From Eretmocerus hayati (lineage: Eukaryota > Arthropoda > Insecta > Hymenoptera > Aphelinidae), in contig CM056742.1 of NCBI GenBank assembly GCA_029851415.1, positions 92,742,748-92,806,747 of the forward strand: DNA of 64,000 bases. The letters run 5' to 3'. Every line of letters begins with the position of its first letter. Position 1 is the first letter of the stretch. The translations under genes and the position numbers were made by a program. Under the pieces are notes generated by a model, which was not told the DNA's origin, made no database searches, and saw only the letters and a list, made by a program, of their open reading frames with translations. Below, in pieces: positions 23,082 to 58,100 of the stretch.

Positions 23082-23099
23082 CCTAACTCCCAAGCTATA

Positions 23100-27787: not shown

Positions 27788-27788
27788 T

Positions 27789-28721: not shown

Positions 28722-28772
28722 AATTTTTAAGAGGTGATCAGTGAGTTTTTCTACTAATAACGCCGCACAAAG

Positions 28773-29840: not shown

Positions 29841-30897
29841 CAAGATATCCCTAATGGATCTCCCACCGACAGACCATGAGCGCTCCCATCTTGCTTTTCC
29901 GGTAAACCGGATGAACATAAATCCAACGCCCGTGTACCCTGGGGGCTCAAACTTTCTGCTCTCTGTCCTACGATGTTGGCAAGCCATCATTGCAGGACTG
30001 GGGGCAGCTAACCACTTTCTAACTAACCCACCCCGGAACCGCATTAGCATTACTTCAGGGTGGGAGGCGTCTTGTGCGCTAGAGGGCGTCCCTCTTCGGC
30101 GTGTTCGCTCTTCTGTCTTCTCTCTTCGTCGTCAATGATCACTCTTCAAGTCGTCGTTGTTCGCTATGGAGCGCCCCTTGCTTGACGCTGCAATGCCCGT
30201 TCTCGCTCTCCTTTTCGAGTGATCACCGTCTCGATGTAGGTGGCGATCTTATCCCACGTCTCTTTGCTGCGGAGCATGAACGGCACTAGGGTCTCAGGGG
30301 CGATCTGATCCCCAACCCGGTTCTCGAGCTTCTCTCTCCATGGCTGTGTTCACGCACTGGAAGTGTGCGTGCTCTGCTTCGTCCCCTCTGCCTCACACAT
30401 CTCATGAAACGGAGTCTCCCTCTTTTGGAACCACTCCAGGTACTCTCCGAAGCAGCCATGCCCGCTGAACGCCTGCGTCAGCCAGTAATCCAGCTTCATG
30501 AACTCGAACCATCCACCTGGCTATGTTAGGGATCAACCTTCGCGTTCACTTCTCTTTTGTCGAGCTCTCCCACTCTTCCTGCCACTCTTCGACGATCTCC
30601 TCCCTCTCGACGTCTCGTATGAGAGCCTTACGAATGGGGTTGAGCACGACTTCATCGCTCTAAAGGGTTTCTTGGCGTTTCCACACCCGTACTTTCTCGG
30701 CTACAAGCAGGCGAATAGGTGCTGTACCCGCAAGCACACAGGTTGCGTGATCGGACACCGTGCAATTAGCGCTGATCGTCCGTAGCGCAAAACGCCGCTA
30801 GACTGGACCTAGCTTTGCATCGATTACGGACCCTCTAGCTACCTTTCCCCAAATTGGTGCCCCGTACAGCATGATGGAATAGCTCACGGTGCTGAGG
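29840..30897 (-). pseudogene. R1-like non-LTR retrotransposon, 3' end, inserted in Pao
   Basis: Minus-strand sequence shows YSIMLYGAPIWG (end of the RT of R1/LOA-type LINEs), ATCVLAGTAPIRLLVAEK, a Trp-rich EEWQEEWESS block, an EHAHFQC(V) Cys/His remnant and a final PFMLRSKETWDKIATYIETV block, in more than one frame with stops. It is followed by an untranslated tail with CGGTTCCGGGGTGGG. Pao coding occurs on both sides (before 30897 and after 29840), so it is a 5'-truncated insertion. A diverged AAGGCTCT(G/A)A(A/G)AA(A/G)TTAC sequence at both junctions may be the target duplication. Confidence 0.65.
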
Positions 30898-31439
30898 TAA
30901 TTTTTCAGAGCCTTGGAGAACTTCATGATCAGGGAGAACGTATCCACGATTCTTATTCTCGACCGACAAATTCGAAGCTTTTTCCATTTGCGAAAGCTGT
31001 CCGTACTTTAACATAAAGATTCTGTATCGAGCTCCAAAATCCGAATTTTTCGCAAATTTCCGTTCCATAGAACAGAGCTTTTGGAGGGATGATTTAGATG
31101 GATCGCCGAGATTGAAATTCAAGTTATTCATCAGATTCTGTTCCACCAGTAAGCGTACAACGTATCTACCACTCGAATATGACTATGGGTCTCCTGAAAA
31201 TGTTCCTGACATTCACGATCGTCTTCAATAAACCTTTCACTAACAGTGGGAATTTCTTCCTGCTTCCAAAATTCCTCAATTATCGAGGCTAGTATTGAAT
31301 CATCGGCCAAGTGAAAATGAGAAGCATCAGAATCCGAATTTTGACCAACTCTAGAGGGAACAACCCAACCCAAGGCAGTGTTCGTTGCAATGAGATGATT
31401 TGATGGATCGGTTCTTGCCTTTCTCACCCCACCAATCAC
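30898..31439 (-). pseudogene. pol: BEL/Pao pol, protease-RT linker segment
   Basis: Minus strand: HLIATNTALGWVVPSRVGQN, EEFWKQEEIPTVSERFIEDD and CQEHFQETHSHIRVVD, then after a frame change SSLQKLCSMERKFAKN and RYRIFMLKYGQLSQMEKAS. This is the characteristic Pao segment between protease (GWVV) and RT. It abuts the end of a LINE ORF at 31436-31440, so upstream gag/protease sequence is missing. Confidence 0.8.
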
Positions 31440-32815
31440 GATTCAGAATGATCCCATTTCTCTACATCCAGAGCAATAGGAGCTTCATGGCCAGATACTT
31501 TAAGAATTATGAAGGCCTGTACATCATAACTAAAATCAGAGAGGAATCTTGCAGACAGGTAACCAGGTTCCCTCATGTGCATGATCTTATATATGATAAT
31601 GCCTGCAAAGTACATTCGCCGCGAATCAGTACGCAGCCAGTCCAAGCTCTCCCTGAACGGAGTGATGTGCTCACCCTCCCTAAGATCATATACGTATCTA
31701 ACAAATGAATTGCTCAGTCTTTGTATCCGTTGCCGCTGTTCGTCTGTGGCGTCAAGATATACGACCGGACAGTAGCCCAGGTGGGGTTGGACTAACGCCT
31801 CGACTAGTCGAATTCGCAGAGTCCTGGTGATGCAAGCCCTAAAAAACCGCAAACCATATAGGGCTCTGTTGATTTTCTTCGTCACTTGATTCATTTGCGG
31901 TTCCCACGATAATTTACTATCCAATACGACACCAAGACTCACGACTGTATCACTGAAAGGGACGAAAACTCCCTCCTGTATCTCAACACCTGTCAAATCC
32001 ATCCTTCTCAGATCCTTCATGTTCCTCTCAGAGGAGAGAAAGATTGCTTTAGTTTTACCAGCGTTGAGACGCAGGCCGGAGTCCGCAGCCCAATCAGCAA
32101 CCAGTCGCCCTACTGCTAGTTGAGCGATTCCCTCCCTCATCTCGTTTCTCTCCACTTGGAGATGAATTTGAAGGTCATCAGCGTAGAAGAGATGATCTAC
32201 CCACTTTCCGTCCAGTAACCCGGGCAAGTCATTGACGTCCAAATTGAAGAGTAGTGGTCCGAGAACGGAACCCTGTGGAACACCCAGATTGGTCGTGAGC
32301 CAACCAGATTTACTGTTTTTGGAAGTGACTAGCTGGGTGCGACCTTGTGTATATGATTTGATCCACAGGAGTGCCGATCGCGAGATACCAAGTTGTCGCA
32401 ATTTACTCAGCAATTTCGATGGTAATATTGTGTCAAAGGCTTTGCTGAAGTCGAAGAGTAGTAGTAGGGTGATCTTTTTCCTATCTATACCTAATCTGAC
32501 GTCATCAGTCAATTTCAGCAAAGCTGTCTGGGTACTGTGGTGTTGGTTGAAACCAGCCTGGAAGCGATCTTGTAATTTTTCTTTCTTCAAGTACTCTGTG
32601 ATTCGGTCATGTGCGATTTTCTCGAGAACTTTAGAAAGGGAGCACAGGAGCGCAATGGGGCGGAAGTCCGAAACTGATGATGGAGGTACAGTCTTTTTTA
32701 GCGGAATCAACTGTGCTCGCTTCCAAGCCTCGGGAAAGATATCGAAATCGCCTGCAATGCTTTTGATTTTGTCCAGCGTGTTTCTCGGGTTTCCCTGCGT
32801 CGAATCGACTTCGCC
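31436..32815 (-). CDS. Jockey/CR1-type LINE reverse transcriptase, 5'-truncated but open
   Basis: A single frame of about 460 codons without a stop, ending 31436. It begins within the RT domain with DIFPEAWKRAQLIPLKK, then VSDFRPIALLCSLSKVLEK, FQAGFNQHHSTQTALLKL, LLFDFSKAFDTI, GVPQGSVLGPLLF, the catalytic FYADDLQIH, LRLNAGKTKAIFLSS, VSLGVVLDSKLSWEPQM, and a C-terminal region with LVEALVQPHLGYCPVVY. The order and motifs fit the Jockey/CR1/Kiri group. The endonuclease is missing. Its 3' end touches Pao sequence. The intact frame suggests a fairly recent, 5'-truncated insertion; start codon not defined. Confidence 0.85.
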   Translation of the reverse strand, partial: GEVDSTQGNPRNTLDKIKSIAGDFDIFPEAWKRAQLIPLKKTVPPSSVSDFRPIALLCSLSKVLEKIAHDRITEYLKKEKLQDRFQAGFNQHHSTQTALLKLTDDVRLGIDRKKITLLLLFDFSKAFDTILPSKLLSKLRQLGISRSALLWIKSYTQGRTQLVTSKNSKSGWLTTNLGVPQGSVLGPLLFNLDVNDLPGLLDGKWVDHLFYADDLQIHLQVERNEMREGIAQLAVGRLVADWAADSGLRLNAGKTKAIFLSSERNMKDLRRMDLTGVEIQEGVFVPFSDTVVSLGVVLDSKLSWEPQMNQVTKKINRALYGLRFFRACITRTLRIRLVEALVQPHLGYCPVVYLDATDEQRQRIQRLSNSFVRYVYDLREGEHITPFRESLDWLRTDSRRMYFAGIIIYKIMHMREPGYLSARFLSDFSYDVQAFIILKVSGHEAPIALDVEKWDHSES

Positions 32816-33680
32816 AAGGGGCCATTTCGAAGGAAATTGACCGAGCTATCGAAGTGAGTAGGCTACAGAGTGGTAACTTGATGGTAAGTTATGGGACATT
32901 GAACATTTGATACCTTTCAATCGAATAAAAAAGTGTTTCCAACCGTTGTGCGTCATTATATTGTTACTTAACAGCCACTTAACACTTGATACGCCGCAAT
33001 CTACTAATTCCGTTAGCTCAGACAATTTCCTTTGAAATAACCCTTTGGTGAAGTCAATTCGACGCAGGGAAACCCGAGAAACACGCTGGACAAAATCACA
33101 AGCGTCGCAGGCGATCTCGACCGATTCGCACGGATTTTTATCTTGGACTTTACCTCATTTAAAATGATTCACTACTCCGGTCCCATTGCGTTGAATTGAC
33201 TTTTATCAGTGGTCATTTTGAAGGAAATTGCACGGGCTATCGATTGAAAATATTATCAAAACCGTAGAGAATCACGCATGCGCAGGAGAACTCGAAAACT
33301 GCGATAAAAAGTGATTCTAGGACTGTATTTCTGCCGTTCTGGCCCCGTTCTGACCATTTAATTCAACTAAAACTAACCGCTCCATGCGTTGAAAGTTTCC
33401 TAAGACCATCCCAATCAATGTTGTTCAGCTCGGTCTGCTCCATTCTACTTGGATTGCAAGTGTTTGCCAAGTGAAACTGACGAATTTTGTCGAAAAACGT
33501 CTCAAAACTGCAAAAAAATCGAAAATGTATGTCAAAATGGGCACTATATAGGCTACCTCTAAAAATCTGAAAAAAATTGCATCGATCTAGTTTCATATTG
33601 AAATTGAAATATCCGCGCGTGCGCGAAGGATCCAGGGGAGTCGGAAAATGAGTGATACCCTAATATATATTATATATATA
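32816..33680. other. Rearranged LINE-derived sequence and non-coding DNA
   Basis: 33053-33120 on the plus strand repeats, in inverted orientation, the first ~65 bp of the LINE frame (the CGACGCAGGGAAACCCGAGA block also at 32740-32815). GGAAATTG(A/C)(C)C(G)GGGCTATCGA-like sequence occurs at both 32829 and 33219. The remainder shows no gene. Confidence 0.55.
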
Positions 33681-38144: not shown

Positions 38145-39441
38145 TATATATATATATCGCTTTGCGCCTTGCACCGATATATGTCTGATGGAACTATATA
38201 TATTCTTCCATCTCTGCCTCTATCGCTCACCTACGTATAAAACATGAGGGCGAATCCATACATCTCTGTTTGAAGAATAAAAGTTGCGTGAACTAATGAG
38301 CAGCATGCATGAATTTCGCGTGTCTACGCAACCGCTAATATCGAGCTGCCTAATTCACGTAAAGTGGGGAATGACGAGAGCTGGATGTATCGTCAGCAAC
38401 GGGGGCGGAGGTGCCAAGCACTTCTCTCTGATACACTTATCCTACAGGTAGTCCAGGACCTCAGCGAAGCCCGCCGAGGAGTCAGCCTAGGGCCCGGACG
38501 CATATAAAACTCTCGCTTGACCCGTCCCCGCTCGTCATTCCCAAATGGAGTTCATTTGAGAACTTGCGTTCTAATTTTTTGGCAAAAAGTAAGTCTAATA
38601 TAAGTCCCTCTTTGCGTGATGATATGAGAATTCATTATTTCTTTTCACTATCGCTACGCAATCCTGATCGATTGTGAGCGTGCCGGATCTCTCTTGTAGA
38701 TCCTTAACTCTATGCAGCCTTACTCCAAAGGCTAGTAAAGTTAAGAACTCACGGATAAATCCTGTCATGCATCCGCGAATTAGAGAAAACTGTGAACGCC
38801 ATACATGAGCTGAACACAAGACAGGGAATTCAGCACGTATATATCTACCATATACTTTTACAGTCATTCGGACTAGGTAAAATCCCTAATCTCCCTGTAT
38901 TAAGCGTGCTGAATTCCCAGTCTGATTTTCTAGGATCGGACATTGACCAAGACGAACGGCAGCATACCCAAGGGCGACACAGTCGTAGAACCGTATATCT
39001 TTGTTAGGCTTTCTCTTCTCATATTCCAACACGCGAGCGAGCGAGGAAGTTAGCTGAAATCATTTGTCTATTAGAAACGTACACACATCAAGAGTGTGGG
39101 AGCCATTATATCCCGCATACTTGCGATGTATGCCTAACAGGATGACAATTTGTTGAAAACAGCTCATAGATGGCTATTTTCCTTATATGTTCACAGATGT
39201 AATCATTATACGATCATTGCGAGGCAAACTTCACCAATATATTGGATCAAATACATATGTCCAGCAAGGCAGCAGTATTGAGCTCGAAGCCAGCATATTT
39301 TCTTTGTACGCGGCCTGCAAGCCGTGGGATTGAGATGTATAGAGTCAGATCAATTGAATTCCTAGAAACGATATTCAAAATCTCAGTCGAATTTATAACC
39401 CGTTGTGGACAATGGCTGACTACGCTCGTTGACCCCTGCAG
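38145..39441. other. Non-coding between Helitron and Gypsy LTR
   Basis: No protein-coding gene supported. It contains the promoter-like segment at 38499-38595 described separately. Confidence 0.45.
38367..38595 (+). promoter_or_regulatory. Candidate promoter and first exon
   Basis: GCATATAAAA lies at about 38498 with TCATTC about 35 bp later (38535-38540) and an AAAGTAAGT splice-donor-like sequence at about 38586-38594. GGGAATGACGAG (38367-38378) is inverted as CTCGTCATTCCC at 38531-38542. It could start an unidentified spliced transcript. No downstream coding exon was identified. Confidence 0.3.
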
Positions 39442-39786
39442 TGTATTACGAATATATTGTAAGAGTGAGCTCAGCACTGTATTAGTCATCTTACGATGAA
39501 TCAGAATTCTCGCGAATATATTGAAGCTGTGTCACAAAGAAGTGCATAGTCTCTCTGCACTCATTCACATATGAATGTGTCTGGCCCCGAATTCACGTAC
39601 CAGGTACGAGCTGGTACGATGCAGGGTATGAGAGAGGCACCTACTGCACAGCCAGGCAGACGGCTCAAGACCGGCAAGCCTCATACACGGCCCCGTGTCA
39701 TTTGTATCAATATTGAATAAAGTTTTAGTTATCACTCAGAACACCGATCTCATCATATATTGCACGCCCTCTCCCCGGACACCACA
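39442..39786 (+). repeat. 5' LTR of the Gypsy element
   Basis: It starts TGTATTACG and ends ...ACCACA, giving TG...CA ends right before the primer site. It matches 57781-58100 at most positions (small substitutions such as GGTATGAGAG versus GGTATAGAAG). AATAAAGTTTTAGTT near 39717 is a probable polyadenylation region. Confidence 0.85.
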
Positions 39787-39798: not shown

Positions 39799-39910
39799 AT
39801 AAAAGCAGCAATCCGACGAGGATGAAACAGACCATACGATGAGGATAGGTAAATCTATCTGACGAAGATAGAAGAAGACAATCCGACGAGGATTACTCGA
39901 TACAGCAAAG

Positions 39911-40175
39911 GTGAGAAGACAGGTCCTCCGCAGCATACTAATAGAGCCATTTAACAAGAGTTATGTGTCAATAGGAATTCTACGCAAAATAGCTAGAAAG
40001 ATACGACAAGTTCAATTCACTGTAAAAACTCAGGTAGTCGATATTCCGAAGCAAAATATTAGTATCGAAATACCAGAAGATAGTGATTTGGGCGAGGGGA
40101 GTGCATTAACTCCAACTTCATACCAAAACAGTCCCACAGTAGACAAAGAAATACAGAAATCAGGAGAAGATGATA
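39911..40175 (+). pseudogene. gag: Gypsy leader/gag N-terminal segment
   Basis: The frame is open from about 39911 to the insertion point (RRQVLRSILIEPFNKSYV..., acidic and polar later, ending EKSGEDD-like). After the insertion, with one TA discounted, the frame continues into the gag frame starting at 53726, so it belongs to the same transcript and possibly the same protein. No recognised domain. Confidence 0.5.
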
Positions 40176-40637
40176 CACGGTCATTCAAAACTATAGGTAA
40201 GCCCAGAAAGGGGTTGAAGATCTTGCTTGCCCGGTCCCAATCGCGTAGGCAAAATGAGGATTGGGGCCCTGGTCATTTTGAGAATCAAATTTGAATGCCG
40301 TCTTGTTTTGAAGCCTCGACCGTCTCGCGCACGCGTCTCCCCAGCTCTTGCGTTGGCGTCTCGCGTCTCGCGTCCGCTGCTTTTCCTCGATTGCATTCCG
40401 TCGCCGCGACGAGCAATCCTGCGAGAGTGAAAAGTAAGCCTAACAGTCGCGTGGTCGTACCTGATGCGAAGATTGCTCGTCGCAGCGACGAATTGCAATT
40501 GATTGCAATCGAGGAAAAGCAGCCGGAGACACGAGACGCGAGACGCTTGTGTACTTATGAGGGGTTATGGTCCGCTTGTATTTTCCGTTCGTGGCTGCTG
40601 TATTTTTGTTCCAAGTCATTCGTAATGACATCTTTTC
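40176..40637 (+). repeat. Left terminal inverted repeat of the giant element
   Basis: Reverse complement of 53257-53718 up to GACATCTTTTCT. It contains its own imperfect inverted repeat: GCGTCTCGCGTCTCGCGTCC...TTTTCCTCGATTGCA (40351-40400) pairs with TGCAATCGAGGAAAAGCAGC...ACGCGAGACGC (40502-40547), and CGACGAGCAATC pairs with GATTGCTCGTCG, so each TIR can fold. Confidence 0.9.
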
Positions 40638-40656
40638 TGAATCAAACTACATACTA

Positions 40657-43600
40657 ATAAACCTTTTGTCTCTTTCATTCACACGATTTTGATGACGGGG
40701 ATGTCGAATAGTCAATGCCGATCGATATCCAATGACAGAAATTCGCGAGTAGATGACTCGATGCTCGAGCTGTAGTCGTGGCTCGCTAAGATTCAAAGCA
40801 GACGCGTAAGAAATTCCGGATTTTGATCAATGTACAGACTAATTAACAGTTCGACATTTTCACTCACACGATTTTGATGACGGGGATGTCGAATAGTCAA
40901 TGCCGATCGATATCCAATGACCGAAATTCGCGAGAAGATGACTCGATGCTCGAGCTGTAGTCGACGCTCGCTGAGATTCAAAGCCGACGCGTAAGAAATT
41001 GCGGATTTTGATCGAATTACCCACTAATTGAAATTTCGTCTCTTTCATTCACAAGATTTTGTCACCGGAGATGTTGGGAAGTCGATCCTCATTGATATCC
41101 AGTGACAGAATTTCGCGAGAAGGTGACTCGATGCTCGAGCTGTAGTCGACGCTCGCTAAGATTCATACCAGACGTAAGAAATTGCGGATTTTGATAAAAC
41201 TACCGACTAATTGACATTTCGCCTTTTCCATTCACACTATTTTGTCACCGGAGATGTGATAAAGTCAATGCTGATCGATATTTGATGACCGAAAATCGCG
41301 AGGAGATGACTCGATGCTCGGGCTGTAGTCGACGCTCGCTAAGATTGAGAGCAGACGTGAGAATTTTCGGATTTTGATCAAAGTACACACTAATTAACCA
41401 TTTGTCTCTTTCATTCACACTATTTTGTCCCCGGAGAAGTTATGAAGTCAATGCCGATCGATATCCAATTACAGAAATTCGCGAGGAGATGACTCGATGC
41501 TCGGGCTGTAGTCGACGCTCGCTAAGATTCGGAGCAGATGTAAGGTATTTGCGGATTTAGATAAATTTAAACACTAATAAACCATTTGTCCCTTTCATTC
41601 ACACTATTTTCCCCCGGAGAAGTCATGAAGTCAATGCCGATCGATATCCAATTACAGAAATTCGCGAGGAGATGACTCGATGCTCGGGCTGTAGTCGACG
41701 CTCGCTAAGATTCTGAGCAGATGTAAGGTATTTGCGGATTTAGATCAAAGTACAGACTCATCGATAACTTGTTTCGTTCATTCACACGATTTTGTCGCCG
41801 GAGATGTTGGGAAGTCAATTCTCATTGATATGCAGTGACAGAGATTCGCGAGGAGATGACTCGATGCTCGAGCTGTAGTCGACGATCGCTGAGATTCAGA
41901 GCAGATGTAACGAATTTGCGGATTTCAATCAAACTACACACTAATAAACCGTTTGTCTCTTTCATTCACACAATTTTGATGACGGAGATGTCATAAACTC
42001 AATGCGGATCGATATCCAATGACCGAAATTTGCGAGAAGATGACTCATTGCTCGAGCTGTAGTCGACGCTCGCTAAGATTCGAAGCAGATGTAACAAATT
42101 TGCAAATTTCAATCAAACTACACACTAATAAACCGTTTGTCTCTTCCATTCACACTATTTTGTCACCGAAGATGTCATAAAGTCAATGCTGATCGATATC
42201 CAATGACCAAAATTGACGAGAAGATGACTCGATGCTCGAGCTGTAGTCGACGCTCGCTAAGATTCAGAGCAGATGTAAGGAATTTGCGGATTTTGATCAA
42301 AGTACAGACTCATCGATAACTTGTTTTGTTTATTCACACGATTTTGTCGCCGGAGATGTTGGGAATTCAATTCTCATCGATATCCAGTGACAGAAATTCG
42401 CGAGGAGATGACTCGATGCTCGAGCTGTAGTCGACGCTCGCTGAGATTGAGAGCAGACGTGAAAATTTTCGGATGTTGATCAAAGTACAGACTCATCGAT
42501 AACTTGTTTCGTTCATTCACGATTTTGTCCCCGGACAAGTCATGAAGTCAATGCCGATCGATATTTAATTACCGAAATTCGCGAGGAGATGACCCGATGC
42601 TCGGGCTGTAGTCGACGCTCGCTAAGATTCAGAGCAGATGTAAGGAATTCGCGGATTTTGATCAAACTACACACTGATAAACCATTTGTCTCTTTCATTC
42701 TTACTATTTTGTCCCCGGAGAAGTTATGAATTCAATGCCGATCGATATCCAATTACAGAAATTCCCGAGGAGATGACTCGATGCTCGGGCTGTAGTCGAC
42801 GCTCGCTAAGATTCAGAGCAGACGTGAGAATTTTCGGATGTTGATCAAAGTACAGACTCATCGATAACTTGTTTCGTTCATTCACGATTTTGTCCCCGGA
42901 CAAGTCATGAAGTCAATGCCGATCGATATTTAATTACCGAAATTCGCGAGGAGATGACCCGATGCTCGGGCTGTAGTCGACGCTCGCTAAGATTCAGAGC
43001 AGATGTAAGGAATTCGCGGATTTTGATCAAACTACACACTGATGAACCATTTGTCTCTTTCATTCTTACTATTTTGTCCCCGGAGATGTTGGGAATTCAA
43101 TTCTCATCGATATCCAGTGACAGAAATTCGCGAGGAGATGACTCGATGCTCGAGCTGTAGTCGACGCTCGCTGAGATTGAGAGCAGACGTGAAAATTCTC
43201 GGATGTTGATCAAAGTACAGACTCATCGATAACTTGTTTCGTTCATTCACGATTTTGTCCCCGGACAAGTCATGAAGTCAATGCCGATCGATATTTGATT
43301 ACCGAAATTCGCGAGGAGATGACCCGATGCTCGGGCTGTAGTCGACGCTCGCTAAGATTCAGAGCAGATGTAAGGAATTCGCGGATTTTGATCAAACTAC
43401 ACACTAATAAACCATTTGTCCCTTTCATTCACACTATTTTCCCCCGGAGAAGTCATGAAGTCAATGCCGATCGATATCCAATTACAGAAATTCGCGAGGA
43501 GATGACCCGATGCTCGGGCTGTAGTCGACGCTCGCTAAGATTCAGAGCAGATGTAAGGAATTCGCTGATTTTGATCAAACTACACACTAATAAACCATTT

Positions 43601-44235
43601 GTCTCTTCCATTCACACTATTTTGTCCCCGGAGAAGTTATGAATTCAATGCCGATCGATATCCAATTACAGAAATTCGCGAGGAGATGACCCGATGCTCG
43701 GGCTGTAGTCGACGCTCGCTAAGATTCAGAGCAGACGTGAGAATTTGCGGATTTCGATCAAACTACAGACTCATCGATAACTTGTTTCGTTCATTCACAC
43801 GATTTTGTCGCCGGATATGTTGGGAAGTCAATTCTTATTGATATCCAATTACAGAAATTCGCGAGGAGATGACTCGATGCTCGGACTGTAGTCGACGCTC
43901 GCTAAGATTCGGAGCAGATGTGAGGTATTTGCGGATTTAGATCAATTTAAACACTTATAAACCATTTGTCTCTTTCATTCACACTATTTTGTCCCCGGAC
44001 AAGTCATGAAGTCAATGCCGATCGATATTGAATTACCGAAATTCGCGAGGAGATGACCCGATGCTCGGGCTGTAGTCGACGCTCGCTGAAATTCAGAGCA
44101 GACGTGAGAATTCGCGGATTTTGATCAAACTACAGACAAATTTGGGACTCGTCTCTCTCACTCACACGATTTTGTTGATGGAGTTAACGTAAAGTCAATG
44201 CTTATCGATATCTTATAATAGAGATTCGCGAGAAG
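40657..44235 (+). repeat. ~184-bp satellite, forward array (about 19 units)
   Basis: Successive GATGACTCGATGCTCG positions are about 40752, 40937, 41122, 41305, 41488, 41671, 41855, 42039 and 42223, i.e. 183-185 bp apart. Each unit carries TTCATTCACACGATTTTGT, CCGGAGATGT, CAATGCCGATCGATATCC, AAATTCGCGAGGAGATGACT and GTAGTCGACGCTCGCTAAG. Long open frames across units occur because 183 is a multiple of 3; they are not called as genes. Confidence 0.95.
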
Positions 44236-44760
44236 ATCACTTCAGATTCGCGTACGCGAATGTGAAGCTGTTCGCGTACACGGATGCCGAGCTGATTCGC
44301 GTGCGCGAGCAAGCCAAGATTCGCGTACGCGAATGGGAAGCTGATTCGCGTGCGCGAGCAAGTCAAGATTCGCGTGCACGAGCAAGCCAAGATTCGCGTA
44401 CGCGAATGGGAAGCTGATTCGCGTGCGCGAGCAAGCACAGATTCGCGTACGCGAATGCCAAGCTGATTCTCGTGCGCGAGCAAACCGAGATTCGCGTACG
44501 CGATTTTGGAGCTGATTCGCGTACACGGATGCCGAGCAGATTCGCGTGCGCGAGCAAGTCAAGATTCACGTACGCGAATGGGAAGCTGATTCGCGTGCGC
44601 GAGCAAGCACAGATTCGCGTACGCGAATGCCAAGCTGATTCGCGTGCGCGAGCAAGCACAGATTCGCGTACGCGAATGCCAAGCCGATTCGCGTGCGCGA
44701 GCAAGCCGAGATTCGCGTACGCGAATGTAAAGCTGATTCGCGTGCGCGAGCGATTCAAAT
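44236..44760. repeat. ~49-bp palindromic GC-rich tandem repeat (element core)
   Basis: Alternating GATTCGCGTACGCGAATG and CTGATTCGCGTGCGCGAGC motifs with a ~49-bp period (about 44318, 44391, 44440, 44489, then on to 44710). TTCGCGTACGCGAA is a perfect 14-bp palindrome. The blocks are runs of alternating purine/pyrimidine (CGCGTGCGCG, CGCGTACGCG). A looser continuation extends to about 45040. All frames are open on both strands because 49 is not a multiple of 3. Confidence 0.92.
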
Positions 44761-45044
44761 TCCCAAGTAATTTGGAACTCGCGTATGCTACGTTTGGATA
44801 TCATCATGTGCGCGATCGGCATCTTCTCCTCTAAGGTCTCGCGTACGCGGATATGAATCTCACTAGTGCATGAAAGCCCATGTGATGCGATCGACACCTC
44901 AGTTGATTCGCGTACGTGAACGTGGAGATACTCCGCGTGCGGGAGCGAGCCGAGACTCGCGTACGCGGATGGGGAGCTGACTCGCGTGCGCGAGCGAATT
45001 ATTTTTCCAAGTCGATGGAGCCTTATTCTCTCGACGGTGATGTC

Positions 45045-48000
45045 GAGAAGTCGATGCGAATCGACTCCGGGGACAAAATGGTGTGAATGAAAGAGACAAA
45101 TGGTTTATTAGTGTGTAGTTTGATCAAAATCAGCGAATTCCTTACATCTGCTCTGAATCTTAGCGAGCTTCGACTACAGCCCGAGCATCGGGTCATCTCC
45201 TCGCGAATTTCTGTATTTGGATATCGATCGGCATTGAATTCATAACTTCTCCGGGGACAAAATAGTGTGAATGAAAGAGACAAACGGTTTATTAGTGTGT
45301 AGTTTGATTGAAATCCGCAAATTCGTTACATCTGCTCTGAATCTCAGCGAGCGTCGACTACAGCTCGAGCATCGAGTCATCTCCTCGCGAATTTCTGTCA
45401 CTGGATATCAATGAGAATTGACTTCCCAACATCTCCGGTGACAAAATCGTGTGAATGAACGAAACAAGTGAACGATGGGTCTGTACTTTGATCAAAATCC
45501 GAAAATTCTCACGTCTGCTGTCAATCTCAGCGAGCGTCGACTACAGCCCGAGCATCGGGTCATCTCCTCGCGAATTTCTGTAATTGGATATCGATGCATT
45601 GACTTCATGACTTCTCCGGGGGAAAATAGTGTGAATGGAAGGGACAAATGGTTTATTAGTGTGTAGTTTGATCAAAATTCGCGAATTCCTTACATCTGCT
45701 CTGAATCTTAGCGAGCGTCGAGTACAGCCCGAGCATCGGGTCATCTCCTCGCGAATTTCGGTAATTAAATATCAATCGGCATTGACTCCATGACTTGTCC
45801 GGGGACAAAATCGTGTGAATGAACAAAACAAGTTATCGATGAGTCTGTACTTTGATCAACATCCGAAAATTTTCACGTCTGCTCTCAATCTCAGCGAGCG
45901 TCGACTACAGCTCGAGCATCGAGTCATTTCCTCGCGAATTTCTGTCACTGGATATCAAAGAGAATTGACTTCCCAACATCTCCGGCGACAAAATCGTGTG
46001 AATGAACAAAACAAGTTATCGATGAGTCTGTACTTTGATCAAAATCCGCAAATTCCTTACATCTGCTCTGAATCTCAGCGAGCGTCGACTACAGCTCGAG
46101 CATCGAGTCATCTTCTCGTCAATTTTGGTCATTGGATATCGATCAGCATTGACTTTATGACATTTTCGGTGACAAAATCGTGTGAATGGAAGAGACAAAA
46201 GGTTAATTAGTGTGTAGTTTGATTGAAATCCGCAAATTCGTTACATCTGCTCTGAATCTCAGCGAGCGTCGACTACAGCTCGAGCATCGAGTCATCTCCT
46301 CGCGAATTTCTGTCACTGCATATAAATGAGAATTGACTTCCCAACATCTCCGGCGACAAAATCGTGTGAATGAACGAAACAAGATATCGATGAGTCTGTA
46401 CTTTGATCTAAATCCGCAAATACCTTACATCTGCTCCGAATCTTAGCGAGCGTCGACCACAGCCCGAGCATCGAGTCATCTCCTCGCGAATTTCTGTAAT
46501 TGGATATCGATCGGCATTGACTTCATGACTTCTCCGGGGGAAAATAGTGTGAATGAAAGGGACAAATGGTTTATTAGTGTTTAAATTTATCTAAATCCGC
46601 AAATACCTTACATCTGCTCCGAATCTCAGCGAGCTTCGACTACAGCCCGAGCATCGGGTCATCTCCTCGCGAATTTCTGTATTTGGATATCGATCGGCAT
46701 TGAATTCATAACTTCTCCGGGGACAAAATAGTGTGAATGAAAGAGACAAACGGTTTATTAGTGTGTAGTTTGATTGAAATCCGCAAATTCGTTACATCTG
46801 CTCTGAATCTCAGCGAGCGTCGACTACAGCTCGAGCATCGAGTCATCTCCTCGCGAATTTCTGTCACTGGATTTCAATGAGAATTGACTTCCCAACATCT
46901 CCGGTGACAAAATCGTGTGAATGAACGAAACAAGTGAACGATGGGTCTGTACTTTGATCAAAATCCGAAAATTCTCACGTCTGCTGTCAATCTTAGCGAG
47001 CGTCGAGTACAGCCCGAGCATCGGGTCATCTCCTCGCGAATTTCGGTAATTAAATATCAATCGGCATTGACTCCATGACTTGTCCGGGGACAAAATCGTG
47101 TGAATGAACGAAACAAGTTATCGATGAGTCTGTACTTTGATCAACATCCGAAAATTTTCACGTCTGCTCTCAATCTCATTGAGCGTCGACTACAGCTCGA
47201 GCATCGAGTCATTTCCTCGCGAATTTCTGTCACTGGATATCAAAGAGAATTGACTTCCCAACATCTCCGGCGACAAAATCGTGTGAATGAACAAAACAAG
47301 TTATCGATGAGTCTGTACTTTGATCAAAATCCGCAAATTCCTTACATCTGCTCTGAATCTCAGCGAGCGTCGACTACAGCTCGAGCATCGAGTCATCTTC
47401 TCGTCAATTTTGGTCATTGGATATCGATCAGCATTGACTTTATGACATCTTCCGTGACAAAATCGTGTGAATGGAAGAGACAAAAGGTTAATTAGTGTGT
47501 AGTTTGATTGAAATCCGCAAATTCGTTACATCTGCTCTGAATCTCAGCGAGCGTCGACTACAGCTCGAGCATCGAGTCATCTCCTCGCGAATTTCTGTCA
47601 CTGCATATAAATGAGAATTGACTTCCCAACATCTCCGGCGACAAAATCGTGTGAATGAACGAAACAAGATATCGATGAGTCTGTACTTTGATCTAAATCC
47701 GCATATACCTTACATCTGCTCCGAATCTTAGCGAGCGTCGACCACAGCCCGAGCATCGAGTCATCTCCTCGCGAATTTCTGTAATTGGATATCGATCGGC
47801 ATTGACTTCATGACTTCTCCGGGGGAAAATAGTGTGAATGAAAGGGACAAATGGTTTATTAGTGTTTAAATTTATCTAAATCCGCAAATACCTTACATCT
47901 GCTCCGAATCGTAGCGAGCGTCGACTACAGCCCGAGCATCGAGTCATCTCCTCGCGAATTTCTGTAATTGGATATCGATCGGCATTGACTTCATAACTTC

Positions 48001-49445
48001 TCCGGGGACAAAATAGTGTGAATGAAAGAGACAAATGGTTTATTAGTTTGTACTTTGATCTAAATCCGAAAATTCTCACGTCTGCTCTCAATCTTAGCGA
48101 GCGTTGACTACAGCCCGAGCATCGAGTCATCTCCTCGCGATTCTCGGTAATCAAATATCGATCAGCATTGGCTTTATGACATCTCCGGTGACAAAATAGT
48201 GTGAATGGAAAAGACGAAATGTCAATTAGTCGGTAGTTTTATCAAAATTCGCAATTTCTTACGTCTGGTATGAATCTTAGCGATCGTCGACTACAGCTCG
48301 AGCGTCGAGTCACCTTCTCGCGAAATTCTGTCACTGGATATCAATGAGGATTGACTCCCCAACATCTCCGGTGACAAAATCGTGTGAATGAAAGAGACTA
48401 AATGTCAATTAGTGGGTAATTCGATCAAAATCCGCAATTTCTTACGCGTCGGCTTTGATTCTTAGCGAGCGTCGACTACAGCTCGAGCATCGAGTCATCT
48501 TCTCGCGAATTTCGGTCATTGGATATCGATCGGCATTGACTATTCGACATCCCCGTCATCAAAATCGTGTGAGTGAAAATGTCGAACTGTTAATTAGTCT
48601 GTACATTGATCAAAATCCGCAATTTCCTACGCGTCTGCTTTGAATCTTAGCGAGCGTCGACTACAGCTCGAGCATCGAGTCATCTACTCGCGAATTTCTG
48701 TCATTGGATATCGATCGGCATTGACTATTCGACATCCCCGTCATCAAAATCGTGTGAATGAAAGAGATAAAAGGTTTATTAGCATGTAGTTCGATTAAAA
48801 TCTGCAAATCCCTCACATCTGCTCTGAATATCAGCGAGCGTCGACTACAGCTCGAGCATCGAGTCATCTTCTCGCGAATTTCTGTAATTGGATATCGATC
48901 GGCATTGAATTCATAACTTCTCCGGGGACTTTTGTCCTCGGATCGGCATTGAATTCATAACTTCTCCGGGGACTATTTTTAGTGTGAATGAAAGAGACAA
49001 ATGGTTTATTAGTGTGTACTTTGATCAAAATCCGAAAATTCTCACGTCTGCTCTCAATCTTAGCGAGCGTCGACTACAGCCCGAGCATCGAGTCATCTCC
49101 TCGCGAATTTCTGTCATTTGATATCGATCGGCATTGACTTCATAACTCCTCCGGGGACAAAATAGTGTGAATGAAAGAGACAAATGGTTCATTAGTGTGT
49201 ACTTTGATCAAAATCCGAAAATTCTCACGTCTGCTCTCAATCTTAGCGAGCGTCGACTACAGCCCGAGCATCGAGTCATCTCCTCGCGATTTTCGGTAAT
49301 CAAATATCGATCAGCATTGACTTTATGACATCTCCGGTGACAAAATAGTGTGAATCGAAAAGACAAAATGTCAATTAGTCGGTAGTTTTATCAAAATCCG
49401 CAATTTCTTGCGTCTGGTATGAATCTTAGCGAGCGTCGACTAAGA
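45045..49445 (-). repeat. ~184-bp satellite, inverted array (about 24 units)
   Basis: The same satellite as 40657-44235 on the opposite strand. Distinct unit variants appear in mirrored order: the GACGGGGATGTCGAATAG variants at 40695 and 40878 match those near 48740 and 48553; the AAGGTGACTCGA variant at 41122 matches 48312; the AATTCGCTGATTTTG variant at 43560 matches 45130. Units near 48900-49440 repeat units near 48050-48290, so the right arm has an extra duplication. Confidence 0.93.
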
Positions 49446-51560
49446 TCCATGGTACATGAAAGGCTCATCTCGGGCGTGAAAAATCCTTGCGTGCGGAAAA
49501 ATTCTCAGCTTAGCGTGCGCGAGACCCAACATCAAGACTCCAGCAGTTCGACATGACCACTGGCATTCCTCGCGTGCGCGAGCCTTCTCCAACTATACGT
49601 GTGCGAAGCTCAGAATGTGAGGCTTATCTCAGTCGTAGAAACTTCTCACGTGCGCGGAAAATTTCCAACCGCGAGCTCGAGCTTGAAAATTGAAACTTAA
49701 GAATTCACCTCGACCATAGGAATGTCTCGTGTGCGCGAAAATTGCACACTGAGTGTACTCGAAGCCCGGAATCATAAGCTCATGTTGGCCATGGAAAATC
49801 CTCCCAACTTCGCGTACGCGAGGTACAACATCAGAGGCTTACCTCGGACGTTGAAAATTCTCGCGTGTGCGAAAAATTCTAAATTAGCGTGCGCGAGGCT
49901 CGATATCGAAACTTCAGCAGTTCACCTCGAACATGGGAATTTCCCGCGCACGAGAGAATTACCACACAAATTGTACGCGAGGCCTGAAATCAGAAGCTCG
50001 AGGCGCGCGAGAAAATCTCAACTTAGCGTACGGGAAACTCAAGGTGCAGGATTCATTTTGCTCAAGGAAATTGCTCGCGTGCGTAAGACCCATTACCAGA
50101 AGCTCCTTTCGGTTGTTTTGCGTGCGAAATTCTTTTTTCTCAAGTATCAAATGGCGAAAAATCACTAAATTAGCGTCCGCGAGGCTCATCGAAACTTTAA
50201 CAGTTCAGCTCGACCAAATCACCGTGCTCGAGGCCCAACATAAAAGGCTTACTTCGGGCGTGAAAAATCCTCGCGTGCGCGAAAAATTCTCAGCTTAGTG
50301 TGCGCGAGACCCAACATCAAGACTCGAACAGTTCGACTTGACCATTGGAATTCCTCGCGTGCGCGAGCCTTCCCGAACAATACCTGTGCAAAGCTTAGAA
50401 TGTGAGGCTTATCTCAGTCGTAGAAAATTCTCACGTGCGCGGAAAATTCCCAACTTGGCGAGCGCGATCCTAAACATCGAAACTTTAGAAGTCCACCTTG
50501 ACGATACGAATTTCTCGCGTGCTTGAAGATGACCACAAGGAATGTACGTGAGGCTCAGAATCATAAGCTCATGTCGGCCATGGGGAATTCTCGCGTGCGC
50601 GAACATTCCCAACTCAACGTACGCGAGACACAACATCAAAACTTTAGCAGTTCATCTCGACCAAGGGAATCCCTCGCGTGCGTGGGCATTCTACAACTAA
50701 GCGTACGCGAAGCTCAAGAACATGATCGTATCTCAGCCGTGAAAATTTCTCGCGTGCGCGAAGAATTTCCAACTTAACGTGCACGAGGCCCAACATCAGA
50801 GGCTTACCTCGAACGTAGAAATTTCTCGCGTGAGCGGAAAATTCCCAACTAAGCGTGCGCGAGGCTCAACATCAAAATTTTCGCATTTCACCTCGATCAT
50901 GGGAATTTCTCGTGTGCACAAAAATTGCACACTGAGTGTACTCGAGGGCCGGAATCATGAGCTCAAAGCGCGCGAGAAATTCCAAACTTAGCGGGTGCGA
51001 GGCCAACATCAGAGGCTCATCTCGGTCTCGCGTACGCTCAGTTGCGAATCTTTCCGCGCACGCAAGAATTTTCCACAGCCAAGAGAAGCAGCTCCTAATA
51101 ATGCGTCTCGCGTAAGCTGATCCGGAAAAGTCTCGTGCACGCGTTAAATTTCCATGATCGAAATGAAGTACCTAATTTGGGTCTTGTGTACGCTGAGCTG
51201 GGAAATTTTGCGCGCACCTGAAAATTTAGCTTGATCAAGAGGAGCTTCTGATGTCGGAGCCCGCGTAGGCTAAGTTGGGATACTTTCCTTGCACGCGAGA
51301 ATTCCCCACAGCCGAGAGAAGCTTCTGATGCGTGTGCGAGAGAATTTCTTCCATGGTCGAAGTTAAGTCCCGAATTTGGTCTCGCGTATGCTAAGCTGGG
51401 AAATTTCTCGCGGGCGCGAGAATTTTCCCCGGCTGATCTGGGGGCTCGCGTGAGCCAAGTTGGAAACTCGCACACGCGAGAATTCACCACGGCCGAAAAG
51501 AGCTCCTGGTGTTGGGCCTCGCGCACGCGAGAAATCCACCCGGGCTCTCTCGAGAGAAGG
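49446..51560. repeat. GC-motif degenerate array with ~778-bp higher-order period
   Basis: TCTCGCGTGCGCGAAAATTC-like motifs recur every ~75-85 bp with spacers such as GAGACCCAACATCAAGACTC and GAGGCTTATCTCAGTCGTAG. The block at about 49466-49660 is repeated nearly intact at 50243-50440, giving a higher-order period near 778 bp. Degeneracy increases to the right. Small frames inside are repeat by-products. Confidence 0.8.
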
Positions 51561-53254
51561 TCTATTTCCCGTTTATGGGATTTTGCGTACACGAAACGGC
51601 TGTCTCGCCTGCGCTGATTAGGCCGTAATCGTGGTAGGCACTTCACACCGAGCACTTCCTGACATGTACCAGGCTGTCTTCCCTTCAAGCAGATTTTCAC
51701 TCTTTCACCGGCGATTCGGGAGAAAAACGGCACTTTGGTGCTCCATCATCGCCGAGAAGACATCGCCCAGCCAGTATTACTGCGCACGACTACATTCAAG
51801 CTCACCTGTGATCACGAGCATTCGATTGCAGAGCATACGACAACGACACCAAATGTTAGCGTCATTGGCTCAGCTAGCTGCCAACTGAGTACTGTGCACC
51901 AGCTCTCGGCATGAGCGATGTGTACTCGACGACGATGATGCACCAGAGCGCCATACCTCTCCAAACGGCCGGTCTACATGTCTAAAAACATTCTGCAAGG
52001 ACGTGAGCACTCCATGAGTGTTGTGGGGTGCACTCAATACTTGCAGACGAGGGAAAAATGAGCAACGACGAGAGTGATTGTGGCATGGTGCTGAACTAGT
52101 CACGGCTACACTATCAATTAAAAATCACCAAACTTGTCACACTCGTAGAAATCACTTTCCAATGATGCCGGGCTCTCGTCCCTGCAGGAAAATTGTCGAC
52201 ACATCCGCAGATAATCCACGCGAAGGATGGACAGTCTGGTTCTTCATCGCCGCCGAATACACATCGCGCGACCTAGAGGCAAACGGTGGCCGAGTTCTCG
52301 AGCTGATTTTGTAATTTGATGCACACCGGGTCGCAACAATAACAAAGCCGACGACGCAAGCCTTGACTTCTGCGGGCGTCTGCTTTGCAGCATTGCCGCT
52401 GATCATGGGTCGAGGTTAACTCGTACGACTTCTGCGCAAATGAGAGGCGCATCAATACACGATTTAGCAATAGACCGGTTTATGCGTGACCTGCCGTTGC
52501 CGACTTTGCCGTATTATGCTGCCGGGATAATTTCGAGCTCTCTTTACTATTCAATACACATAACCTCGAAAGCATTACACTAATCATTACATATTGTTTA
52601 TGTAATGATTAGTGGTAAATCATTACACAACAAACAATTGCCGCCAAATTTCAAACATTACAAATGTAATGATAAAAGTGACTTTTTCTATTGAAAGTTA
52701 CAAAATCTGAAAATTATTACAAAACTTCTTGAAAAACTTTTCTGAAAATACAAAATTTTTTTTCAACTCCCTGTTACGGTATGTACACACCTTTTGAAAC
52801 ACGGTGTATAATGATGTTCTATATGACTGCACAAATGATTTCAATCACAGATCAATGTTTGAGGTCACTTTTTCCTGAAAAGGTAGTTGAAACTATTGAA
52901 AACTGCACTCAATCCTGAACTTGTGTATAAATATTGATCATGAAAAAAATTTGTTGGAGCTTTTGCCCTTCTTACACTCCCGCGCACCAAACACTTTTTC
53001 GGTGGTAGTGCGAAGTACAGCAGCAGTTTCCTGAAATACAAATCTATTTCAGAAAAATCCTGTAATTTTAGCTGGATGTGCGACATTCTGTACGATGATC
53101 CGCACCAATCCGCACTGCCGCTAAAGTACACGTGGCCCGCGAGACAGCTGTGTCCAATGTCGAGACATGTGCCAGCGCCCAGCACAACTGATGCCACCTC
53201 AATCGCCGACTAAAAGATGCATCACTTATTACACGATGCCCATGGCAAAGCGAG
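51561..53254. other. Unique non-coding region of the giant element
   Basis: No transposase-like or other gene recognised on either strand; the short frames have no motifs. It contains a perfect hairpin (52579-52613) and a CACGGTGTATAATG sequence (52800) slightly reminiscent of the element's end. Confidence 0.5.
52579..52613. repeat. Perfect 15-bp hairpin
   Basis: ACTAATCATTACATA (52579-52593) and TATGTAATGATTAGT (52599-52613) with a TTGTT loop; TAATGATT/AATCATTA recurs nearby (52630-52680). Confidence 0.9.
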
Positions 53255-53256
53255 AA

Positions 53257-53718
53257 AAGATGTCATTACGCATAATGACTTGGAACAAAAATACAGCAGC
53301 CACGAACGGAAAATACACGCGGACCATAACCCCTCATAAGTACACAAGCGTCTCGCGTCTCGGGTCTCCGGCTGCTTTTCCTCGATTGCAATCAATTGCA
53401 ATTCGTCGCTGCGACGAGTAATCTTCGCATTAGGTACGACCACGCGACTGTTAGGCTTACTTTTCACTCTCGCAAGATTGCTCGTCGCGCCGACGGAATG
53501 CAATCGAGGAAAAGCAGCGGACGCGAGACGCGAGACGCCAACGCAAGAGCTGGGAAGACGCGTGCGCGAGACGGTCGAGGCTTCAAAACAAGACGGCATT
53601 CAAATTTGATTCTCAAAATGACCAGGGCCCCAATCCTAATTTTGCCTACGCGATTGGGACCGGGCAAGCAAGATCTTCAACCCCTTTCCGGGCTTACCTA
53701 TAGTTTTGAATGACCGTG
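53257..53718 (-). repeat. Right terminal inverted repeat of the giant element
   Basis: Reverse complement of 40176-40637, differing at few positions (for example GCCCGG versus GCCCAG near the end). TA follows at 53719-53720. Confidence 0.9.
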
Positions 53719-53725
53719 TATATCA

Positions 53726-54523
53726 ATGAATACGCAGATATCTGACAGAATGGATTCAATGGAGTTCATTCCAAATAAGAAAAACTGGGATAATTACATC
53801 GATCGGATAGAATTCTATTTTACAGCAAACGATACTACCACGGATGCAAAACAAGTAGCAATATTGCTTACAAAATGTGGCAGTGAAACGTACAAGCTAA
53901 TCAAGGATCAAGCATAACCCGATCTGCCAAAGAACAAAAAATTCGCAGAAATAAAGAAATTAATGTCGGATCATTTATGCCCAAAGAAGAGCAAACGCAT
54001 GGAACGGAGCAAATTTCGTCAAGCTCGTCAAAATGCAGGCGAATCTATAGCTGAATAAATCGCAAGGTTGAAAGAATTGGCTATAAATTGCGATTTTACG
54101 GACTTGAACGATGCGCTGTGTGACCAACTGGTCACAGGTCTCACGGATCGAGGTACCAAAGTCGCACTATTTAGCGACAAAGGTCTCACATACTCGAAAG
54201 CAGTCGAGATCGCTACCATCCGAGACGCAGCAGCGAGGGATGCAGCAAACACAGAGCGACATCGTAGCAGCAGGTCAATTCAACACGTCTCAGCACAACG
54301 TCACAACAAGCCGAACACGTATAAAACTATTTCCTCAGGTAAAAGTGTATCAAATCCGAAATTATACCCGAAATGGTGTTATTGTTGCGGCATGCGAGAT
54401 AGCCATTTCAGCAAAGATTGTCGTTATAGAGATAGGAAATGCTCATTTTGTCAAAAGCAAGGTCAATTAGAGGAAGCTTGCATGAAAAAAACACGGGAAA
54501 AAGGTACTTTACGGTATTCCTAA
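53726..54523 (+). pseudogene. gag: Gypsy gag with two zinc knuckles
   Basis: One frame with in-frame TAA at 53915-53917 and 54056-54058. It begins with EFIPNKKNWDNYIDRIEFYF (typical start of insect Ty3/Gypsy gag), then LLTKCGSETYKLIKDQA, LKELAINCDFTDLNDALCDQ and DRGTKVALFSDKGLTYSKAV. A basic linker leads to a C-x2-C-x5-H-x4-C knuckle (CYCCGMRDSHFSKDC) and a second knuckle in which the usual His is replaced by Gln (CSFCQKQGQLEEAC). The frame is continuous with the leader at 39911-40175 across the giant insertion. Inactive because of the stops. Confidence 0.85.
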
Positions 54524-55220: not shown

Positions 55221-56660
55221 ATGAAATTAGGCAATTTAGAACCAGTTTCTTGTAGTCAATGGGCAACACCCATAATACCAGTTCTCAAGAAGGACGGCGA
55301 CGTTAGAATTTGTGGTAACTTTGAAATGACTGTTAATCCACAATTGATTATAAGAAGACATCCAATTCCATTGAAAGAGGAAATTTTCAATACATTACGC
55401 ATTGGAGACAAATGGTCCCAAATAGACTTGACACATGCATTCATGCAATTCGAACTCAATGACTCATCGAGAGATGCCCTTACGATTATTTCACACGAGG
55501 AATTACACAGATACACACGTTTAGGGGAGGGCATAGCCTCAAATCCCGCGGAAGTACAGGATATTCTAGAGGGAGTCCTCAAAGGTATAGATCATACAGA
55601 GATCTATATTGATAACATATATTGCACCGGAAAAACAGATTCTGAGCATTTACAAATACTAACACAAATTTTTGAACGTTTACAAAACGCAGGATTAAGA
55701 GTGAACCTCGAGAAATGCGATTTTTTCGAAAACGCAATTGAAATACTAGGCTTTGTGATAGACAAAAATGGGTTAAAGCCAAGTCAATCCAAAGTACACG
55801 CGATTACGAAGGCTCCAACACCAAAAAATTCGGAAGAACTGGAAGCTTTCTTAGGTCTTGTGAATTTTTATGAAAGATTCTTAACAAACCGAGCGGAACA
55901 CATTTATCCACTCTACAATCGAATCAAGAATAAAACTTTCAAATGGACAAACAAATATCAAAAAGCATTTAATTGGATCAAAAAAGAAATGTCTTCAAAC
56001 AAAGTCTTAGCAATTTACGATCCAAACGTAAAACTCGTTTTGGCATGTGACGCTAGTGACGTGAGAGTTTCAGCAATATCGTCACACAGATACGATAATG
56101 ATTCTGAAGAACCTATAGCATTTGCATCCAAGATAATTCCAAAATCGGAGATACATCGCGCAATAATCGACAAAGAAGCAGGAGCAATCATTTTCGGATT
56201 CAAAAAATTCCATCAATACGTTTACGGAAACGATATTATTCTGAAGACCGACAACGGAGCTCTAAAATATATATTCGGCAACAAAGACATGTCAAAAATG
56301 CTAAACAGCAGATTACTACGCTGGGCATACTTTTTGTCGGGCTATAGATACACCATCGAGGGAGTAAAATCGAGAGCAAATGGCAACTGCGACGCGCTTT
56401 CAAGGTTACCGATCGCATACAGAACGCCGGTATTCGAGACAAAATACACGAGCATTAATTTTATTCAGGACGAATGCAAGGTCATAGACTTCCCAAAAGT
56501 TGTAAGAGCAACACCGCACGATAAAATTTCACGAAAAGTTATTTCATACATACAAGCGTCAGGGCCTAAAATTGAAGCTCTGACCAACATAGAGAAAAGC
56601 TTTCATCATAAACGCCATGAACTGAGCTTTGAGAAAGGATGCCTATCGTGGGGTTATTGA
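55221..56660 (+). pseudogene. pol: Gypsy reverse transcriptase and RNase H
   Basis: Open for 479 codons, no internal stop. RT: VSCSQWATPIIPVLKKDGDV, RICGNFEMTVNP, SQIDLTHAFMQFEL (first Asp), then a diverged thumb/palm region lacking the usual FG(L/I)xxAPxxFQ, then YIDNIYCTGK at 55605, where the YxDD active site reads Y-I-D-N, and GLRVNLEKCDFF, ILGFVIDKNGLKPS, LEAFLGLVNFYERFL. RNase H: LACDASDVRVSAI, FASKIIPKSE, IIDKEAGAIIFGFKKFHQYVYG, LKTDNGALKYIF and NGNCDALSRLP. The loss of the second active-site Asp makes RT inactive despite the long open frame. Confidence 0.9.
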
Positions 56661-57706
56661 ATAATAATTCCAGAATCAATACAGAGAAGTATACTCGATG
56701 AACTTCATTCATCTCATCTTGGAATCGTGAAAATGAATCGAATAGCCCGGTCTTATTTTTGGTGGCCACGTATCGATGAAGACATCGAACGAATCGCGAA
56801 TTCCTGTAGAATCTGTTTAGCAACGCGATCAGAACCACGAAAAATATCTCTAACCCCGTGGCAGTGGCCCAGTCAGCCTTGGTCGCGAATTCACATCGAT
56901 TTTATGGGTCCATTCCACAATTGCATGTTTTTGATCATCGTAGATGCTCATCCAAAGTGGCCTGAAGTCATAAACATGAAAAAGATACAACATCGTACAA
57001 ACTCATACAGGTACTAGACGAAATTTTTTCACGATATGGTATCCCTCATCACATAGTGAGCGATAGTGGTCCACAATTAACGAGCCGAGAATTTGCAAGA
57101 TTCGTGAAACAATACAAGATTGAACACACATTCTCAGCTTCTTATCACCCTGCTACTAATGGCGCAGCAGAAAATTTTGTTAAAACAGTGAAACTCAAAG
57201 TAGACAAAATAATCAAAGATGGTCATTCATTAGGATTTTCAATCAACAGGTTCTTAAGCGATCATAGGAATACAGAACATTTGACAACGAATAGAACACC
57301 AGCAGAACTATTCTTCAATAGGAAGTTGCGTACAAGATTCGATTTATTGATACCCAATTCAACTAGCAATGTTGAAGAACACCAATTTGATCAGAAACGA
57401 TACAAACAGGGTAACAGGATAATAGAGTTTACAGAGAATGGAATTGTTTTTGTGAACGATTTTCGAGTATAATCCGAAAATAAGAGTCCAGCAAAAATTA
57501 TAAGACGACTCTCACCAGTCGTGTATGAAATAAAATTTGGAGATGGATATGTAACTAAGGGACATGCAAATCAAATTGTGAGAACACAACTGGACGATAC
57601 CTTAAGAGGAGGGGAATTGATATGTAAGGATTATTGTAAGAATTCATATGTGGAACCGAATATTACCAAGAATTTCAAGAGCAGAATGTACCCTGACAAT
57701 GATTAA
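56661..57706 (+). pseudogene. pol: Gypsy integrase, frameshifted
   Basis: Zinc-binding domain: LHSSHLGIVKMNRIARSYFW, IANSCRIC (H...H...C..C kept). Core: SRIHIDFMGPFHNCMFLIIV (first Asp near 56902), a frame change near 57000, HHIVSDSGPQLTSREFARFV (second Asp, 57062), SASYHPATNGAAENFVKTVK (Glu, 57169). The C-terminal part is TTNRTPAELFFNRKLRTRFD and, after a stop at 57471, VYEIKFGDGYVTKGHANQI to 57706. All three catalytic acids are present, but the frame change and stop break the protein. Confidence 0.87.
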
Positions 57707-57777: not shown

Positions 57778-57780
57778 TTG

Positions 57781-58100
57781 TAGTGTATTACGAATATATT
57801 GTAAAAGTGAGCTCAGCACTGTATTAGTCATCTTACGATGAATCAGAATTCTCGCAAATATATTGAAGCTGTGTCACAGAGAAGTGCATAGTCTCTCTGC
57901 ACTCGTTTACATATAAATGTGTCTGGCCCCGAATTCACGCACCAGGTACGAGCTGGTACGATGCAAGGTATAGAAGAGGCACCCACTGCACAGCCAGGCA
58001 GACGGCTCAAGACCGCCAAGCCTCATACACGGCTCCATGTCATTTGTATCAATATTAAATAAAGTTTTAGTTATCACTCAGAACGTCGAACTCATCATAT
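57781..58100 (+). repeat. 3' LTR of the Gypsy element (3' end incomplete)
   Basis: It matches 39442-39763 and stops matching after CTCATCATAT, whereas the 5' LTR continues ~23 bp to CACA. The 3' LTR thus lacks its last bases, and TGTTATGGCCCGAGCGG follows instead. Confidence 0.82.

Follow-up and report, generated by a model that had tools for sequence, protein, structure and literature searches.

A probable young family of giant foldback transposons, flanked by TA and carrying satellite arms, in the genome of Eretmocerus hayati

How several kilobases of satellite DNA came to stand inside a retrotransposon, between two long inverted repeats, is the question raised by a stretch of the Eretmocerus hayati genome 64,000 nucleotides long (assembly GCA_029851415.1, contig CM056742.1; C2:92742748-92806747), hereafter the window. 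A unit of 13,543 bp spans positions 40176-53718 of the window, inside a Gypsy element, and its ends are CACGGTCATTC. A first-pass annotation, made without database searches, had described nearly identical terminal inverted repeats (TIRs) of ~460 bp, starting CACGG and with TA on both sides. Alignment bore this out, with inverted ends of 463 and 466 bp sharing 454/466 identities (97%) and TA outside both. The ~8 kb of 184-bp satellite that it had reported was also recovered, as two arrays summing to ~8.0 kb, the second being the inverse of the first, an orientation it had overlooked. We conclude that the unit likely belongs to a young family of giant foldback transposons, probably non-autonomous.

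The insertion can be followed at its junction with the Gypsy element. When one TA was counted, the left frame stayed open for 65 codons beyond the junction, compared with 3 codons when both TAs were counted and 7 when neither was, which supports a TA duplication at the window copy. The earlier claim that Gypsy gag coding runs in frame across the insert holds as far as the frame is concerned, but the gag label found no backing, as the left frame (39872-40294) and the right open reading frame (ORF; 54059-54523) had no Pfam match.

The genome (692,130,109 bases in 17 contigs, nearly all of it in the four largest) was searched with the 24-base end, allowing up to 3 mismatches. There were 182 matches, 90 forward and 92 reverse, compared with 0 and 0 for a reversed-pattern control. 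For pairing we used 101 ends, 100 of the 182 as listed and one from a survey of TIR matches (40 of 199 candidates scored), and counted as a pair any adjacent convergent ends less than 60 kb apart. Among these known ends, 32 pairs were found, with spacings of 2.2-46.7 kb and a median of 10.0 kb; the widest of the pairs not read may not correspond to one element each. Fifteen units were read fully: the window copy and 11 others (together E01-E12), plus L051, L052, and L054. Their sizes were 7.2-16.0 kb, and the smallest pair measured 2.2 kb. TA adjoined 35 of the 36 ends examined, the sole exception being GA at one end of a 29-kb pair, and an A preceded the TA at 27 of the 36. When 1-kb flanks from 12 units were compared (n = 24), just two pairs resembled each other: those of E06 and E09, whose likeness is a repeat (85.5% over 621 bp), and the two flanks of E11 itself. 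A lack of other copies had been named beforehand as grounds for giving up the idea of a mobile unit; with 182 end matches and 15 units read, an assembly chimera or a chance TIR is ruled out as the whole explanation.

The satellite has travelled with the unit. We took 374 full monomers from the 11 satellite-bearing units and found that their best match in another unit averaged 96.0-98.7% by arm, compared with 87.2-98.2% within the same arm and 89.9-96.6% in the opposite arm. Monomers 1-7 of the left arm of the window copy aligned in order with left-arm monomers 1-7 of E05, E06, and E07 at 96-99%, and inner monomers paired with inner monomers, with skips and repeats where arrays had lengthened or shortened. 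Two single-copy segments of the unit, RB and RC, diverged by 1.24% on average between nine copies (0.73-1.96%), each copy lying 0.4-1.2% from the consensus. Because the ordered monomer identity is close to this divergence, we consider that the arrays moved with the element, and the low divergence indicates a recent spread, with arrays about as old as the single-copy part. Independent acquisition of the arrays at each site was rejected on the in-order correspondence of monomers between insertions. The proposal of a mobile TIR unit that disperses a satellite has thus been strengthened, by many copies, by TA at nearly all ends, by mostly unrelated flanks, and by monomers that correspond in order.

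Each satellite-bearing copy is built as a near-palindrome. The 184-bp satellite occurs in 11 of the 15 units (E01-E11), with the first array forward and the second in reverse in every one of them; 49-bp CGCG-rich arrays and a short centre lie between the two arms. The 49-bp array is also present inverted in several other units; in the window copy, this inverted half is mostly missing. Inverted repeats make up 98% of E02 and 97% of E04, around a loop of 182 bp, and a fraction of 0.53-0.75 in the other nine satellite-bearing units. Long inverted arms, internal tandem repeats, and a short centre, the features of the foldback class, are thus found together in 11 of the 15 units. A 3.8-kb R block (RA, RB, and RC) lies between the satellite arm and the TIR in nine of the 11 and is absent from E02 and E04. 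RB and RC are 97.5-99% identical to those of the window copy, and RA is gapped in some units. In E08 (C1:123463621-123480658; L042, L043), a 3.6-kb insertion with no ORF longer than 138 codons was observed within RA.

The two TIRs of a unit are of different types, L beside the satellite and R beside the block, which differ at positions shared across copies. Since these types are kept from copy to copy, the asymmetric unit must have been copied as a whole. The units without an R block, E02 and E04, have the L type at both ends. In E11 (C1:106720654-106731719; L048, L049), the outer part of the right TIR resembles the L type and the inner part the R type, and the flanks match each other in inverted orientation over 527 bp at 99.6%. 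The double L ends of E02 and E04, together with the mosaic TIR and the flanks of E11, suggest strand switching or conversion from one arm to the other. The position of E11 amid an inverted duplication of its own flank may be a scar of strand switching.

These observations suggest how the family may work. Insertion at TA with duplication of TA, as in Tc1/mariner elements, is what the 35 of 36 ends and the frame test display, and because the target is TA, a transposase of the Tc1/mariner kind is the most likely one. We infer that such an enzyme, supplied in trans, would act on the CACGG ends and insert the whole unit at TA. Units have multiplied whole, and their arrays have changed in length; unequal exchange or slippage within the arrays would add or remove monomers, so that the element could both spread satellite and enlarge it in place. 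The arms have also exchanged sequence; strand switching, or conversion across the palindrome, may have created them and may occasionally copy them anew.

Several points weigh against this account. No DDE_3 gene was found within the 32 pairs (150 of 821 candidates scored and compared by eye, with the DDE_3 profile only), so the autonomous relative with the same ends for which the first-pass annotation had suggested a search was not recovered. Nor was a repeated transposase site found in the TIR, where the outer segments did no better than shuffles (lowest p 0.14); such inverted-repeat/direct-repeat sites are typical of some Tc1/mariner subgroups only. At 7-29 kb, the units are much larger than Tc1/mariner elements usually are. 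The right-arm monomers of E06 and E07 match their own arm as well as they match other units, which is local duplication. Finally, the second TA of E11 belongs to the inverted duplicate of its flank, so its two TAs are not independent. Separately, many DDE_3 genes in this genome form equal-score sets, and in some of them frames of 370-490 codons are open, a pattern suggestive of recent activity of Tc1-type families.

Large autonomous members that bear genes, in the manner of Starships or Teratorn, might exist among the unread copies. Most of the 182 ends belong to unread units, and pairs of 18-47 kb exist, yet no long non-repeat ORF was seen in those of the 15 complete units whose ORFs were listed, and a Pfam scan of five ORFs of the window copy gave 0 matches. 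We consider such members unlikely. Pairs of 2.2-3.0 kb had the size of possible autonomous copies, but in the one at C1:137119081-137121314 (2.2 kb), 800 bases from the middle contained a short array of the 33-bp type and no ORF longer than 94 codons. No Rfam family reached its gathering score in window positions 40000-54000, and the 29-base end was sought in viral_contigs and not found. Foldback elements commonly, though not necessarily, lack a transposase gene of their own.

Among known systems, miniature inverted-repeat transposable elements (MITEs) are smaller than ~1 kb, a size that all 15 units exceed several-fold. Polintons (Mavericks) bring their own polymerase and integrase genes and make a duplication of ~6 bp; the window copy has a TA duplication and no Pfam match in the five ORFs scanned. 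Helitrons have neither TIRs nor target duplications. Polintons and Teratorn had been offered as the comparison in the first-pass annotation, but because the arrays are mirror-image arms, the foldback class is the closer one. The domain plan matches that of Tetris, an element known, with its relative DAIBAM, from the Drosophila virilis group (PMC4079207). As in the family described here, Tetris has a flanking domain, a tandem-repeat domain (~220 bp in Tetris), an inner domain, and a middle, arranged in long inverted arms (PMC4079207). No autonomous copy of it is reported, and its tandem repeats have expanded to kilobase-size satellite arrays of up to 66 copies, so that a link between foldbacks and satellite growth had already been drawn (PMC4079207). 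Only three structurally complete Tetris copies are described there, with arms of at most 1,735 bp, compared with several kilobases here (PMC4079207). Our units also differ in having two unrelated cargo arrays. An origin of the satellite from the TIR, as partly for Tetris, whose repeat shares 37 bp with its flanking domain (PMC4079207), was considered and dropped, as satellite and TIR showed no similarity at E 0.1. Judged by its domain plan, the family works like Tetris, from which it differs in TA duplication, size, and double cargo.

This likeness of plan also favours another enzyme, namely a Mutator- or P-type transposase rather than a TA-inserting one, as proposed for Tetris and Galileo. 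The duplications of Tetris, however, are 8-10 bp (PMC4079207), whereas TA adjoins nearly all ends here and one TA restores the open frame, and we regard such an enzyme as very improbable. Galileo and other Drosophila foldbacks likewise have long arms with internal tandem repeats, but Galileo is placed in the P superfamily by the same paper (PMC4079207), and the duplication here is TA. The Xenopus Tc1/mariner MITE miDNA4 is also non-autonomous and holds a satellite as one monomer or as an array (PMC12628747, PMC9659126); it is a MITE, whereas the present units are giant and their arrays form inverted arms. Satellite-like arrays are also carried and spread by Helitron/DINE elements, which have tandem repeats at their centre (PMC9659126, PMC12628747), but the ends and mode of these elements differ from those of this family. 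A literature search of open-licence PMC papers found no TA-inserting giant foldback with satellite arms.

The arrays themselves also change in length. The number of full monomers in complete units ranges from 11 to 55. In the 29-kb pair, 10 kb taken from the middle were all satellite, 8.1 kb forward and then reverse. The family end at C1:94541081 has RC and RB attached, and the satellite matches listed beside it extend from 94548199 as far as 94585391, with neighbouring ones up to ~1.5 kb apart. Near-identical matches recur there at three intervals of 5.14-5.15 kb, and the 7 kb that follow, up to 94592299, consist entirely of satellite. In total, ~44 kb of mostly continuous satellite in one orientation lie beside one family end, and the stretch read stops within satellite. 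In the satellite search (16 of 179 candidates scored), the matches listed all fell at eight loci, each with a family TIR. Variable array length and the sign of strand switching are also what would be expected if the arrays had spread by circle copying or ectopic recombination with the TIRs as passengers, but unit boundaries fall at the same TIR bases, next to TA, and the left and right TIR types have been kept, and we give that explanation very little credence. It is equally hard to credit an assembly artefact, with satellite collapsed or misjoined between two copies of an inverted repeat: satellite palindromes are difficult to assemble, and the array lengths of the 29-kb pair and of C1:94.54-94.59 Mb come from the assembly alone, yet a single architecture is repeated at 11 loci whose flanks differ, and the genome has 182 matches to the end.

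A second cargo was found behind the same ends. E12, L051, L052, and L054 have these ends and part of RC, no 184-bp satellite, and a 33-bp array of 50-55 copies, so that, with four of the 15 units built in this way, two unrelated arrays share one set of ends. It is possible, although we lean somewhat against it, that one TA-inserting transposase system serves as a general satellite disperser, which carries at least two unrelated cargoes in units well over 10 kb, far larger than is usual for Tc1/mariner elements, and whose single insertions grow via ~5.1-kb higher-order units into ~44 kb or more, leaving nascent satellite at successive stages in one genome. The scattering and lengthening of satellites are usually inferred from fragments. 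Here, monomers can be paired one to one between insertions of one young family, which allows transposition, local growth of arrays, and arm-to-arm exchange to be separated and dated in a single genome. The family could also reveal the upper size of unit that a TA-inserting transposase is able to move, and whether the palindromic arms assist it or are only a side effect. The published link between foldbacks and satellites in Tetris limits the surprise.

Table 1. Parts of the window copy and of the Gypsy element in which it lies (positions in the window)
Feature	Position	Strand	Remark
Target duplication TA, left	40174-40175	none	
Left TIR, L type, 463 bp	40176-40638	+	
184-bp satellite array, forward arm	40641-44241	+	
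Inner domain, 49-bp CGCG-rich array	44244-44751	+	
Central spacer (loop region)	44752-45064	none	
184-bp satellite array, inverted arm	45065-49442	-	
R block	49442-53252	+	RA 49442-51615, RB 51616-52525, RC 52526-53252
Right TIR, R type, 466 bp	53253-53718	-	
Target duplication TA, right	53719-53720	none	
5' long terminal repeat, Gypsy	39437-39758	+	304/323 identical (94%) to 57779-58100
3' long terminal repeat, Gypsy	57779-58100	+	
Gypsy pol	55221-57472	+	Reverse transcriptase and RNase H 55221-56660, integrase 56966-57472 (domain matches)

Among named proteins, the closest match to the Gypsy pol (Table 1) comes from the ant Vollenhovia, and the other named matches are spread over many animal groups. 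Elsewhere in the window, we observed another long-TIR element at 18744-21484 (2.7 kb in total, with inverted repeats of ~705 bp that are 95.5% identical), near an inserted stretch with short ORFs. Two more inverted-repeat pairs lie at 15881-18216 and 23053-24470, at 79% and 82% identity. Two neighbouring ORFs at 6219-7280 correspond to the two halves of the double-jelly-roll domain PF21738 and may be what is left of a virus-like or Polinton-like element; for the first ORF, an uncharacterised protein of the wasp Leptopilina heterotoma was the single relative recovered. The minus strand at 26820-32845 holds pieces of a BEL/Pao-type retrotransposon (Peptidase_A17, DUF5641) and a reverse transcriptase resembling those of long interspersed nuclear elements. 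Finally, minisatellites of 61 bp and 26 bp were seen outside the element at 3326-3837 and 7715-8189.

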